Origin: Syntrophomonadaceae bacterium
Lineage (GTDB): Bacteria > Bacillota > Dethiobacteria > DTU022
Assembly: GCA_003567725.1 (NCBI GenBank)
Contig: PWYU01000064.1
Coordinates: 1 to 42,875, forward strand
Direction of reading: 5' to 3'
DNA length: 42,875 nt
The notes below the pieces were generated by a model that saw only the letters and a list, made by a program, of their open reading frames with translations, was not told where the DNA came from and made no database searches. The translations under genes and the position numbers were made by a program. The number at the start of each line of letters is the position of its first letter. Within the stretch, counting starts at the first letter, position 1. Shown piece by piece: positions 4,680-28,738 of the stretch.

Positions 4680-5714
4680 CTATCGATACTTCCTCCAGTA
4701 TTCTAAAATAGATTTAAAAGTAGCGCCACATCTGGGACAATCTTCTTGATAATGCAGGATATAAGTGCAGTGGCTGCATTTTAAAGCCGGTATGAGAGTT
4801 CTTTCCCGGGTCCCCTCTTCATCTTCTTCAAGCATTGATATTCTGAGTTCTATATCTTCCATTTCACCAGGTTTATCATCCAAAGCTTTATCATCCAAAG
4901 TTTGATTTAAGATCTTTTCCAGGTTATCCTGTTCTGAATACTTCGTGGGGGGGAGGTTTTGATTATTTATAGCCTCCCCCTCCCTCCTCTCTTTTTCCTT
5001 ATTTTCACCGGTTAAAGTGGAGACGCTTTTATTTTTATTTGGCTCGGCTTTATCATTGAGGTTTTTATTAGCAGGATTTATCCTGGCCTGTTCCTGGGTC
5101 TGCTCTTGATCAGTGCCGGCGCTTTCAGCAGGGATACCGCTCCTTCTGAATCCTACAAGATCATAATAAGCCATGCTGTGTTCTTTAAACAGATGTTTAA
5201 CATAAGCCTGGGTGGTAGAAATATCCCTGTGCCCGAGGGCATTCTGTGCCAGGCGGATATCGTTAGTCTCCCTGATGAGCTGAACAGCAAATGTGCTGCG
5301 CAGCAAATGAGGATGCACATCCTTATTAAGGCCGGCTTTGCGGGCCAGACGCTTGACCATTTCACGTAAATACCGGTCCTTAAGGCGTTCGCCTTTTAAG
5401 GTGGTAAAAAGATATAAGCTATGATGCGGCCTGGTTAGCAACCATTTATTAATTAATCCCATTAAATCTTCATCAAGCCACAGGGTTCGTTCTTGTGCCG
5501 CTCCGCTTTTAGCTAGATGGACTTTCCCGGCCTTTAAATAAATATCATCCACTTTTAAAGCGAGAACTTCTCCGGCGCGCAACCCCGCTTTAAGCATAAG
5601 CATGATCATACATAAATTACGCAGCCCGGTTGGAGCTTTCTGGTTAGGCTGCCTGAGCAGCGCCAGTTGCTCGCCCTGGCTTAAAATCAAGGAATAATCT
5701 AGAGCATTAGTCAT
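4680..5714 (-). CDS. Tyrosine recombinase with C-terminal zinc ribbon, no N-terminal core-binding domain
   Basis: A phage-integrase-family catalytic domain. Catalytic residues are visible: Arg in KAGLRAGE (R49), Lys in HLAKSGAA, HxxR in HPHLLRST, His in LGHRD and the nucleophile Tyr in TTQAYVKH. The usual N-terminal SAM-like DNA-binding domain of XerC/D (about 100 aa) is missing; only about 20 residues precede the catalytic domain. After it come a charged, low-complexity linker (about 200-305) and a CxxC-x9-CxxC zinc ribbon (C316, C319, C329, C332). Numbering is from the in-frame GTG at 5723. The preferred start is ATG at 5714, behind GGTGA with 5 nt spacing. The gene is flanked by inverted dispersed repeats (4486-4536 and 5991-6055). 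It may be a mobile-element recombinase; a host role cannot be excluded. Confidence 0.85.
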   Translation of the reverse strand: MTNALDYSLILSQGEQLALLRQPNQKAPTGLRNLCMIMLMLKAGLRAGEVLALKVDDIYLKAGKVHLAKSGAAQERTLWLDEDLMGLINKWLLTRPHHSLYLFTTLKGERLKDRYLREMVKRLARKAGLNKDVHPHLLRSTFAVQLIRETNDIRLAQNALGHRDISTTQAYVKHLFKEHSMAYYDLVGFRRSGIPAESAGTDQEQTQEQARINPANKNLNDKAEPNKNKSVSTLTGENKEKERREGEAINNQNLPPTKYSEQDNLEKILNQTLDDKALDDKPGEMEDIELRISMLEEDEEGTRERTLIPALKCSHCTYILHYQEDCPRCGATFKSILEYWRKYR

Positions 5715-6204: not shown

Positions 6205-6450
6205 TTGCTAAAGGCTGTGATCGGAAGTAGTAACAGGGAAAACCATTCCCAGAGAGCCGCCACTTGGTGTAAGGCGGTATGATGAAGCCTGTGAACTCAT
6301 CCGTGAGCCGTCAACCGAAATCAACTAAAAAGTTGAAATTAGGATTGGCCGGATACTTCCGTTATCTTAAAGAGTGGGTGGTAGAAGTTATGCCGCCAAG
6401 AAGAGTGGTACCGCGAAAACAGCTTTCGCCTCTTAGGCGAAGGTTTTTTT
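6205..6450 (+). ncRNA. T-box leader (leucine), controls leuA
   Basis: The leader carries the T-box core AAGAGTGGTACCGCG (6400-6414), which pairs with the tRNA acceptor end, and is followed by an intrinsic terminator. Upstream, the GCCGCC...GGCGGT arms belong to stem I. The specifier region reads GAACTCA near 6292-6298, giving the codon CTC for leucine. By family knowledge, uncharged tRNA-Leu would stabilise the antiterminator and let RNA polymerase read into leuA. The specifier assignment is by eye, but it agrees with the downstream gene. Confidence 0.93.
6423..6450 (+). terminator. T-box regulated intrinsic terminator
   Basis: A 9-bp stem CTTTCGCCT / AGGCGAAGG (one G-T pair) with a 3-base loop is followed by seven T. 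It forms when the T-box antiterminator is not stabilised. Confidence 0.85.
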
Positions 6451-24032: not shown

Positions 24033-24061
24033 AAAAAATCCCTCAGCTTAAAGAGGGATTT
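24033..24061 (-). terminator. Terminator of the structured RNA
   Basis: A 9-bp stem AAATCCCTC / GAGGGATTT with an 8-nt loop; the last three T of the stem continue into a run of six on the minus strand. Confidence 0.85.
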
Positions 24062-24373
24062 ATAATCTCTAACTGGCAAATTAAAACCAGGTTCCAACAG
24101 GCCTTCCTGCTTGCCGCCGGATTTCTTCACTTTCCATCCCCAGCCGGGCTTCCGCCACCTCCTCTGGATGGCTTTCCCCCAACCTCCGGTCAGCTACTTT
24201 TCTCCGTGCTGTGTTTTTCGGTAAATTCCCGGTCATAAACCTTTCCTTTACCGACTCTTGCAGCGATCTGGTTTCGGGGATTATCCTTTCACGGATTCCG
24301 GTAAGTCCTTCTTCCACTTTTGGCATCCCCAGGAACCAAATCCAGCTTGCGTCCCAGTCTCTCGGAACCTGGT
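24033..24373 (-). ncRNA. Candidate structured non-coding RNA, class not recognised
   Basis: A self-contained unit: promoter at 24379-24407, predicted start at A24373, terminator at 24033-24061. The first ten bases ACCAGGTTCC (24373-24364) pair perfectly with GGAACCTGGT (24095-24086), closing a domain of 288 nt. Inside are CGGTAAA/TTTACCG (24253-24247 with 24225-24219), which encloses a 5x5 purine internal loop and a small GGT/ACC hairpin. Others are GCCATC/GGTGGC (24172-24167 with 24159-24154), TTTGG/CCAAA and CAGG/CCTG. Loops are rich in G and A. It lacks the signatures of RNase P, tmRNA, SRP, 6S and T-box RNAs as far as I can see. It lies between rocD and proC, so a link to proline metabolism is conceivable. 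A reading frame also crosses it (to 24081), but its TTG start falls in the promoter. Confidence 0.6.
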
Positions 24374-24378
24374 AACTT

Positions 24379-24407
24379 ATTATTGATCGAAACTGTATAC
24401 TTGTCAA
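24379..24407 (-). promoter_or_regulatory. Promoter of the structured RNA
   Basis: Perfect -35 TTGACA (24402-24407), 17-bp spacer, -10 AATAAT (24379-24384). Start expected at 24373, exactly where the closing helix of the RNA begins. Confidence 0.7.
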
Positions 24408-26347: not shown

Positions 26348-28738
26348 TTAGAAATTGCTGTGTTCAGTCCTGGTTATAATTTCATTTTGCAGCTGTTCAC
26401 TTAAATTATTGAAATAATCACTATAGCCGGCTACCCTGACAATCAGGCCCCGGTGGTCTTCGGGATTTCGTTGAGCTTTGCGTAAAGTTTCAGCATCAAT
26501 AACATTAAATTGGATGTGGTGGCCATCAAGAACGAAATACGACCTGATTAAACTGGCCAGGCTCTCCAGGCCTTTATTCCCGGCCAGGACTGGCGGGGTA
26601 AACTTCATATTTAACAGGGTGCCTCCCGTGAGAAGGTGATCCATTTTCGAAGCCGATTTTATAACCGCTGTAGGACCGTTTAAATCGACCCCCTGGGAAG
26701 GCGATATCCCTTCAGAAAGCGGCATTCCAGCCAGGCGCCCATCAGGGGTTGCTCCTATAACTGAACCAAAATAAACATGACAGGTAGTGGGCAGCATATT
26801 GATGCGGTAAGTACCCCCGCGGACCGTCCGGCGGCCGTTAACGCTGCGGTGAAAGCATTTAAATACATCTTGCATGATAGAATCAGCATAATCATCATCG
26901 TTGCCGTAATGGGGGGTCCTGTTGATTAAAAATTGGCGCCGTTCTTCTTTTCCGTGAAAATTGTGATGTAATAAATCAAGCAGTTCAGGCCAGGAAATAT
27001 TTTTCTCTTCAAAGATATGCTTCTTTAAAGCAGATAAGCTGTCAGTTATGGTGCCTATACCTACACCCTGGATATAGTTGGTGTTGTAACGAGCTCCCCC
27101 AGCGTTATAGTCCTTAGCGTTTTCAATGCAATCGTCTATGATAAGAGATAAAAAAGGAGCCGGCATTTCCTCAGCATAGAGTTTTTCAATAACCTGGTTG
27201 CCGGCTATTTTGATATCGGTAAAGTAGCGAAGCTGCTTTTCAAAAGCCTCAAGGAGCTGGTCGAAAGATTTAAATTGTTCCGGATTGCCGGTATTAAGGC
27301 CCAGCATTTTCCCATTTTTAGGATCTTCGCCACCATTAAGGGTGATCTCCAGTATTTTGACCAGGTTGAAGTAGCCGGTTAGAATATAGCTTTCTTTACC
27401 GAAAGCGCCGGTCTCCACGCATCCGCTGGTTCCACCACAGCGGGCATCTACCAGTGATTTACCCTGCGCCAGCAATTCTGAAATTACTGCTTCTACATTA
27501 AAGACCGAGGGTTGGCCCCAGCCTTTTCTGATCACTTCACCGGCTTTTTTCAGGAAAAGATCGGGGCTTTTTTTACTGACCTGCACATTGGTGCTCGGCT
27601 GCAGCAGCCGCATTTCATCGATCACTTCCAGGAGCAGATAGCTAAGATCATTAACTCCATCACTGCCGTCTGGCCTGACCCCGCCCAGGTTGATATTGGC
27701 AAAGTCGGTATAGGTCCCGCTTTCCTGAAGAGTAATTCCTACCTTGGGCGGGGCAGGCTGGTTGTTAAATTTAACCCAGAAGCACTCCAGCAGCTCTTTT
27801 GCCCGATCCCTCTTTAAAGTGCCATCTTTTAAGCCGCTGTAATAGAAAGGCGCCAGGTGTTGATCGAGCCTGCCGGGGCAAAAAGCATCCCAGGTATTAA
27901 GCTCGGTAACCACGCCCAGGTGAACAAACCAGTAGTACTGCAGGGCTTCCCAGAAACTGCGCGGTGGTGAAGCCGGAACGTGATCACAGACAGCCGCGAT
28001 CTGCTCTAGCTCTGTTTTTCTCCGGGGATCAGTTTCAGCTTCAGCCAGTTCCCTGGCTTTCTCGGCATGCCTCCCGGCGAAAGTGATCAAAGCATCGGCG
28101 CAGATACCCATAGCTTGAAGCTCTTCACTTTTGGTTATTGCTTCCGGATCGTTTGTATAATCAAGGGTAGTGAGGTGAGCTTCGATCTCTGCTTTCAAAT
28201 CGCTCATCCCTTTTTGATAAATCTTATCACCGGCAACGGTATGCCCGGGAGCGCGCTGTTCCATAAATTCAGTAAATAGCCCTGCTTCGTAGCAGTCCAG
28301 CCATTCCTGGCTCATCCGTTTAAAAATCTTGTCTCGCATGGAACGCCCCTGCCAGTACGGGATGATTCTTTCTTCCTGGGTTTTTTTAACTTTTTCATTC
28401 ACCCTGAAGGAGATAGTTTTCCGGTTATTAATGACATCCAGATCCTCTAAGGTATGGCAGCAAAGTTCAGGATAAGTCGGTGTGGCCTGCGGGCCTGTTC
28501 CCCGCTCCCCAACGATCAACTCATCTTCATTGATGCAAATGGTTTTACTTTCCATTAAATGCTTAAAAGACAGGGCTCTGAGCATAGGGGTAGAAACTTT
28601 GCCTTCATAGCTACGGTAAGCTTCGGTAAGCAGCACCGCTCTTTCAGCAGTAATGGACGGTTCTGTGTTTTCACTTTGGCTTCTAAGTTTTTTAACCCTT
28701 TCATTCATGCCTCTAATCTCTTCGTGCATATTAATCAT
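26348..28738 (-). CDS. hypD: trans-4-hydroxy-L-proline dehydratase (glycyl radical enzyme)
   Basis: 796 aa glycyl radical enzyme. It removes water from trans-4-hydroxy-L-proline to give P5C, which ProC reduces to proline. The radical Gly771 sits in VRVAGYSDYF near the C-terminus, and the thiyl Cys440 and Glu442 in SGCVETGAF. As I recall them, the active-site residues of C. difficile HypD (H160, D278, S334, D339, F340, C434, E436, Y450, G765) all appear here shifted by exactly +6: H166, D284, S340, D345, F346, C440, E442, Y456, G771. That separates it from pyruvate formate-lyase, glycerol and choline-lyase types. The ATG at 28738 abuts its GAGG; the ATG at 28729 (9-nt spacing) is an alternative. 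It follows its activase. Oxygen-sensitive, cytoplasmic. Confidence 0.94.
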   Translation of the reverse strand: MINMHEEIRGMNERVKKLRSQSENTEPSITAERAVLLTEAYRSYEGKVSTPMLRALSFKHLMESKTICINEDELIVGERGTGPQATPTYPELCCHTLEDLDVINNRKTISFRVNEKVKKTQEERIIPYWQGRSMRDKIFKRMSQEWLDCYEAGLFTEFMEQRAPGHTVAGDKIYQKGMSDLKAEIEAHLTTLDYTNDPEAITKSEELQAMGICADALITFAGRHAEKARELAEAETDPRRKTELEQIAAVCDHVPASPPRSFWEALQYYWFVHLGVVTELNTWDAFCPGRLDQHLAPFYYSGLKDGTLKRDRAKELLECFWVKFNNQPAPPKVGITLQESGTYTDFANINLGGVRPDGSDGVNDLSYLLLEVIDEMRLLQPSTNVQVSKKSPDLFLKKAGEVIRKGWGQPSVFNVEAVISELLAQGKSLVDARCGGTSGCVETGAFGKESYILTGYFNLVKILEITLNGGEDPKNGKMLGLNTGNPEQFKSFDQLLEAFEKQLRYFTDIKIAGNQVIEKLYAEEMPAPFLSLIIDDCIENAKDYNAGGARYNTNYIQGVGIGTITDSLSALKKHIFEEKNISWPELLDLLHHNFHGKEERRQFLINRTPHYGNDDDYADSIMQDVFKCFHRSVNGRRTVRGGTYRINMLPTTCHVYFGSVIGATPDGRLAGMPLSEGISPSQGVDLNGPTAVIKSASKMDHLLTGGTLLNMKFTPPVLAGNKGLESLASLIRSYFVLDGHHIQFNVIDAETLRKAQRNPEDHRGLIVRVAGYSDYFNNLSEQLQNEIITRTEHSNF

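Follow-up and report, generated by a model that had tools for sequence, protein, structure and literature searches.

We consider it well supported that the minus-strand segment behind rocD in the window, the 42,875-nt stretch of DNA that we analysed (contig PWYU01000064.1 of a Syntrophomonadaceae bacterium), is a real gene of a structured RNA belonging to a large family that is absent from Rfam and occurs in many Bacillota. In addition, we give about even chances that this new family carries a terminal helix, P1, as a handle bound by the protein encoded by a gene that we call f1, a partnership to which linkage, co-occurrence and the fixed handle point. The novelty lies in the RNA family and in its association with f1, as opposed to an activity, and no description of this RNA family was found in the open-access literature. 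With its constant handle, its interchangeable heads and the single protein gene that accompanies it, the family leads to a direct and testable prediction, namely a new bacterial ribonucleoprotein (RNP).

The promoter proposed in the first-pass annotation was recovered in full on the minus strand, with a −35 box TTGACA (24402..24407), a 17-nt spacer, a −10 box AATAAT (24379..24384, inside GATCAATAAT) and a predicted transcription start at 24373. It scored 11/12 in a promoter scan, as the sole minus-strand promoter within 800 bp, and the scan did not find the separate proC promoter that had also been proposed. TTGACA recurs 5′ of almost all homologues and AATAAT is common to almost all copies of the window's type (type A), while TTGACA-like and TATAAT-like boxes are present in nearly all copies of the family, with P1 beginning ~6 nt past the second box. 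The annotated 10-bp terminal helix, formed on the minus strand by ACCAGGUUCC (24373-24364) and GGAACCUGGU (24095-24086), is indeed perfectly paired but was understated, as the helix runs on past a G.G mismatch, giving a P1 with the 5′ strand ACCAGGUUCCGAGAGACU (24356..24373, mismatch G at 24361) and the 3′ strand GGCCUGUUGGAACCUGGU (24086..24103, partner G at 24098). Between these strands lie, all on the minus strand, a first arm (P3 and inner hairpins, 24266..24341) with two-sided changes in 6 of 7 P3 base pairs and, as drawn from fold and alignment, a second arm P4 (24208..24264; GCUG/CAGC, a CCGG-rich inner helix and a hairpin) and a third arm P5-P8 (24118..24206). The third arm includes the 7-bp helix with a 5x5 purine loop that had been noted from the sequence, which appears in the fold and is conserved across type A. 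The 341-nt RNA of the window folds at −123.6 kcal/mol compared with −100.6 ± 4.8 for shuffles (z = −4.8), with 0 of 100 shuffles as good.

The hairpin terminator claimed for this copy (24036..24061, minus strand) is real and would yield a 341-nt transcript, but no such hairpin was seen after P1 in the relatives read, and homologues align across RNA positions 1 to 290-299 and diverge beyond. As the U-rich tract found directly 3′ of P1 in most copies, and not the hairpin, is the shared feature, the mature RNA is probably ~295 nt (24078..24373, spanning both P1 strands and the first part of the U-rich tract), with 341 nt as an alternative end; P1 and the U-rich tract may act as a terminator by themselves. 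The window copy carries all the features that define the family, a P1 with G.G, a promoter directly 5′ and a U-rich tract directly 3′. Elsewhere in the window, a T-box leader (RF00230, 134 bits) lies at 6208-6436 on the plus strand, and a gene that by eye is glycyl-radical-enzyme-like lies upstream of rocD at 26348-28738 on the minus strand.

A blastn search returned matches in 28 of 60 relatives, the best at 68-87% identity over positions 1 to 290-299, with partial matches marking paralogues; the contigs with matches came mostly from metagenome-assembled genomes named Syntrophomonadaceae bacterium. Within the window's class (98 genomes), more than half of the genomes have a homologue; a pattern search found the P1 5′ strand in 44 of them (a few by chance), and a covariance model built from type B picked up members in 49. 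In a tree of 61 complete copies, type A (278-294 nt) is distinct from type B (307-318 nt, including a subgroup C), from types D and E, and from others. Up to three or four RNA types are found per genome; the window's own genome has three copies, with type A in the window (C119) and types B and C at C70 and C56, respectively. A contig scan for the exact 3′ motif gave 53 stretches, including some in other phyla and on two viral contigs; the former were rejected as members and taken as chance because they have neither a 5′ partner nor a match to the R1 model, and the viral contigs were treated likewise. Very short members (about 140-190 nt; L332 3022-3161 and L342 about 4862-5042) retain P1. In a complete genome, two tandem RNA remnants with the 5′ half replaced lie at L251 4091-4401 and 5603-5919, and this genome keeps an intact copy at its f1-hpt locus (L270).

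Types A and B were each aligned with MAFFT on sequence only, and each alignment was then folded by itself; P1 enclosing three arms was the outcome for both. In type A (20 sequences), 93.4% of cells were paired versus 87.1 ± 0.4 in shuffled alignments, and both sides had changed in 32 of 69 pairs versus 15.4 ± 2.3; the values for type B (24 sequences) were 95.9% versus 91.1 ± 0.3 and 39 of 83 pairs versus 17.7 ± 2.5, and none of 500 shuffles attained any of these measures in either type, with the caveat that related sequences can score above shuffles anyway. Paired cells dropped to 24-52% in slid-structure controls, which are flattering because the structures were derived from the same alignments. 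P1 is nearly invariant inside type A and varies in concert across types, the pairs flanking the G.G changing together (U-A/C-G, G-C/A-U, A-U/G-C) around a mismatch present in 84 of 85 distinct RNAs. P1 is a constant helix of 12-18 bp, and the head between its strands varies from ~140 to 400 nt. A protein-coding gene was rejected, as all frames are interrupted in most copies, the lengths of nearly all gap runs are not divisible by 3, and no frame stays open across the aligned copies. The first-pass annotation had set a frame conserved without covariation, or a lack of homologues, against its proposal; the homologues found covary and their frames are broken, and the free-standing, highly structured RNA that it described is borne out by its own promoter, the fold score and this covariation.

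Gene names besides hpt and f1 were assigned by reading the sequences. Most type A copies, all in one family, follow rocD at a distance of about 60-110 bp, a position that would suit control of rocD and proC by an RNA that senses proline, ornithine or P5C, as had been suggested from the window. This regulation is extremely improbable in our estimation, as only type A lies behind rocD, the next gene is proC/proB or, in about half of the loci, an NADH-dehydrogenase/hydrogenase-type gene, and other members, including two in the window's genome, are found elsewhere, the f1-hpt operon being the common neighbour. Type B lies between a divergent sodium-type ATPase operon and a convergent hpt, types D and E sit alongside the f1-hpt pair, and f1-hpt adjoins type B, D, E and other copies as well as P1-variant RNAs of other families. 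The orientation of most copies relative to their neighbours is convergent or divergent, which does not fit a 5′ UTR position, and on this ground a cis-regulatory leader or riboswitch was rejected; type A is co-directional with the next gene, and for the window copy a leader role is, despite this, unlikely given its own terminator. A mobile element with P1 as terminal inverted repeats is not favoured either, given the conservation of the promoter outside P1 and the synteny of the loci.

In many loci, only 6-200 nt separate the end of the RNA from the stop codon of hpt, which is consistent with an antisense or shared-terminator element that affects the convergent hpt locally. We consider such a role very unlikely, as type A is not linked to hpt, several of the RNAs in other families are transcribed divergently from f1 and lie away from the hpt end, and neither role needs covarying internal arms. 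Tandem RNA pairs adjoin hpt in L201, L263-L265, L269 and L327; those of L201/L267 and L327 are a few nucleotides apart with no promoter between, as if forming one transcript.

To return to the pairing with f1, a first count over the class of 98 genomes gave 51 with both RNA and f1, 5 with f1 only, 7 with RNA only and 35 with neither (Fisher p 3e-14, ignoring relatedness). Reading of the five f1-only loci revealed the RNA in four of them, giving 55/1/7/35, a count that leans somewhat to agreement because genomes without f1 were covered by model and pattern searches only; by genus, a hand count gave 26 with both, 1 with f1 only, 2 with RNA only and 20 with neither. These counts are not phylogenetically independent, and at linked loci one deletion removes both RNA and f1. 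Of the seven RNA-only genomes, five have a completeness of 58-79%, and f1 was not found in G015 and G018 (96-97% complete), both of which have the RNA. The unlinked type A was not found in near-complete f1-less genomes of the same family (e.g. G020-G022). In a phylum-wide sample, the C-terminal domain of f1 occurs in only 38 of 398 Bacillota genomes, and all five genomes positive by the RNA model are among these 38.

The RNA might instead be another free-standing regulatory RNA, either a trans-acting sRNA or a housekeeping RNA, whose link to f1-hpt reflects inherited gene order; its own strong promoter and varied heads suit many sRNA classes, and a convergent position implies no direct partnership. 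We hold this to be a real possibility, well short of even odds, as f1-hpt stays in place while genes further out differ between families, the linkage persists though the arrangement differs (convergent, divergent), and the unlinked type A likewise tracks f1. The functional neighbour could also be hpt instead of f1.

At the f1 loci of several other Bacillota families, we found a second RNA class, AAGCUCCAAGGAAUUCC...AAAGGUUCGUUGGAGCUU. It can fold into an equivalent P1 that keeps the G.G mismatch while the pairs around it differ, and it can be tied to types A and B by P1, position and f1, not by interior homology. A strict P1 scan of 34 f1 loci (244 kb) gave 16 matches versus 0 in reversed controls; a recognisable RNA was absent at the GC-rich f1 loci L306, L307, L312 and L325. 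The RNAs at f38 and f83 loci appear P1-like and are likely related, the f38 RNA being about 165 nt long with A.A in place of G.G (pairing by eye). A near-perfect, operator-like palindrome, AAGTATACCGGTATACTT, lies directly upstream of f38-type RNA promoters (RNA and palindrome sites at L309 2780-3214 and 3700-4000; L310 4292-4592 and 5074-5500; L317 2900-3310).

The f1 gene (L276 862-1827, plus strand) encodes a Cytidylate_kin2 domain (PF13189) fused to a C-terminal, PD-(D/E)XK-like domain. This second domain, about 100 residues long and strongly conserved, is covered by no Pfam or NCBIfam model. An AlphaFold2 model of this domain alone (pLDDT 82) has the order helix, three strands, strand, helix, strand, helix, and its structural matches are mostly PD-(D/E)XK nucleases (Bax1, Z 7.6; VRR_NUC, 6.7; I-Bth0305I, 6.5; VSR, 5.6), along with mitoribosomal proteins of Toxoplasma and Tetrahymena (Z 7.1 and 6.2), all with Z under 8, which by the tool's warning may mean only a common arrangement. 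The D and E of the motif are invariant, and catalysis is doubtful because f1 has E-x-T where PD-(D/E)XK has E-x-K. The RAP domain has a VSR-like fold. RAP domains are found in organellar RNA-binding proteins (PMC8917122, PMC11879112) and may serve as a precedent for a fold of this kind binding RNA. A pairing with the RNA would suggest a function for an unannotated nuclease-fold domain present in many Bacillota genera.

A locus holding both an RNA and a nuclease-fold protein also recalls type III toxin-antitoxin systems and abiF (RF03085), in which a structured RNA is likewise accompanied by a linked protein gene; abiF of C. difficile is a documented RNA-protein pair of the antitoxin sort (PMC12373285). 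An RNA antitoxin restraining the f1 protein is, however, unlikely: the aligned RNAs contain, by eye, no array of short tandem repeats, no RF03085 match was obtained, the protein families are others, and the RNA is usually convergent or divergent instead of leading the toxin gene. In addition, PADLOC matches to f1 are weak and domain-level only, and the f1-hpt setting is kept across families, apparently unlike that of mobile defence genes.

Under the RNP reading, a strong promoter would set the start of transcription to the first base of P1, and the transcript would probably end in the U-rich tract after P1, with P1 and its fixed G.G as the constant handle and the head as the exchangeable part. 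The f1 protein, CMP-kinase-like and PD-(D/E)XK-like, would probably bind the handle to form an RNP in which the head would set specificity or control the enzyme, and the type A RNA of the window, one of three paralogues, would act in trans from its unlinked site behind rocD. From the kinase-like domain and from hpt, one may guess at a role in nucleotide metabolism. More ambitiously, and in our view doubtfully, exchangeable heads on a G.G handle might program or gate the CMP-kinase/PD-(D/E)XK-like fusion, constituting an undescribed RNA-directed enzyme and a widespread Bacillota RNP.

An Rfam 15 search agreed with the first-pass annotation in placing the RNA region in no known family, either at the gathering cut-off or at loose E-values (best sub-threshold score 19.8 bits versus a cut-off of 43), and for the loci of other subtypes it gave no match over the RNA. 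Like the window family, 6S RNA is a free-standing Bacillota RNA with paired ends; it was rejected, as the window RNA has no RF00013 match and a separate genuine 6S gene is present in 33 of 36 genomes searched. A CsrA-sequestering sRNA, which would be expected to carry an excess of loop GGA (ANGGA) sites, seems less likely, with GGA slightly above shuffles and AGGA below them. The Ro60-bound Y RNAs resemble the family in that their ends form a conserved, mismatch-bearing handle around a variable remainder, whereas the window family has another P1 sequence and a larger size; a TROVE/Ro60 protein was found in none of 60 genomes, and the candidate was set aside. The raiA motif, OLE, ROOL and GOLLD are structured bacterial RNAs, several of which occur in Bacillota, and like the window family they are large, free-standing, multi-armed and covarying. 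The window family differs from them in its lack of an Rfam match, its other neighbours, its several types per genome, and its constant handle with an exchangeable head.
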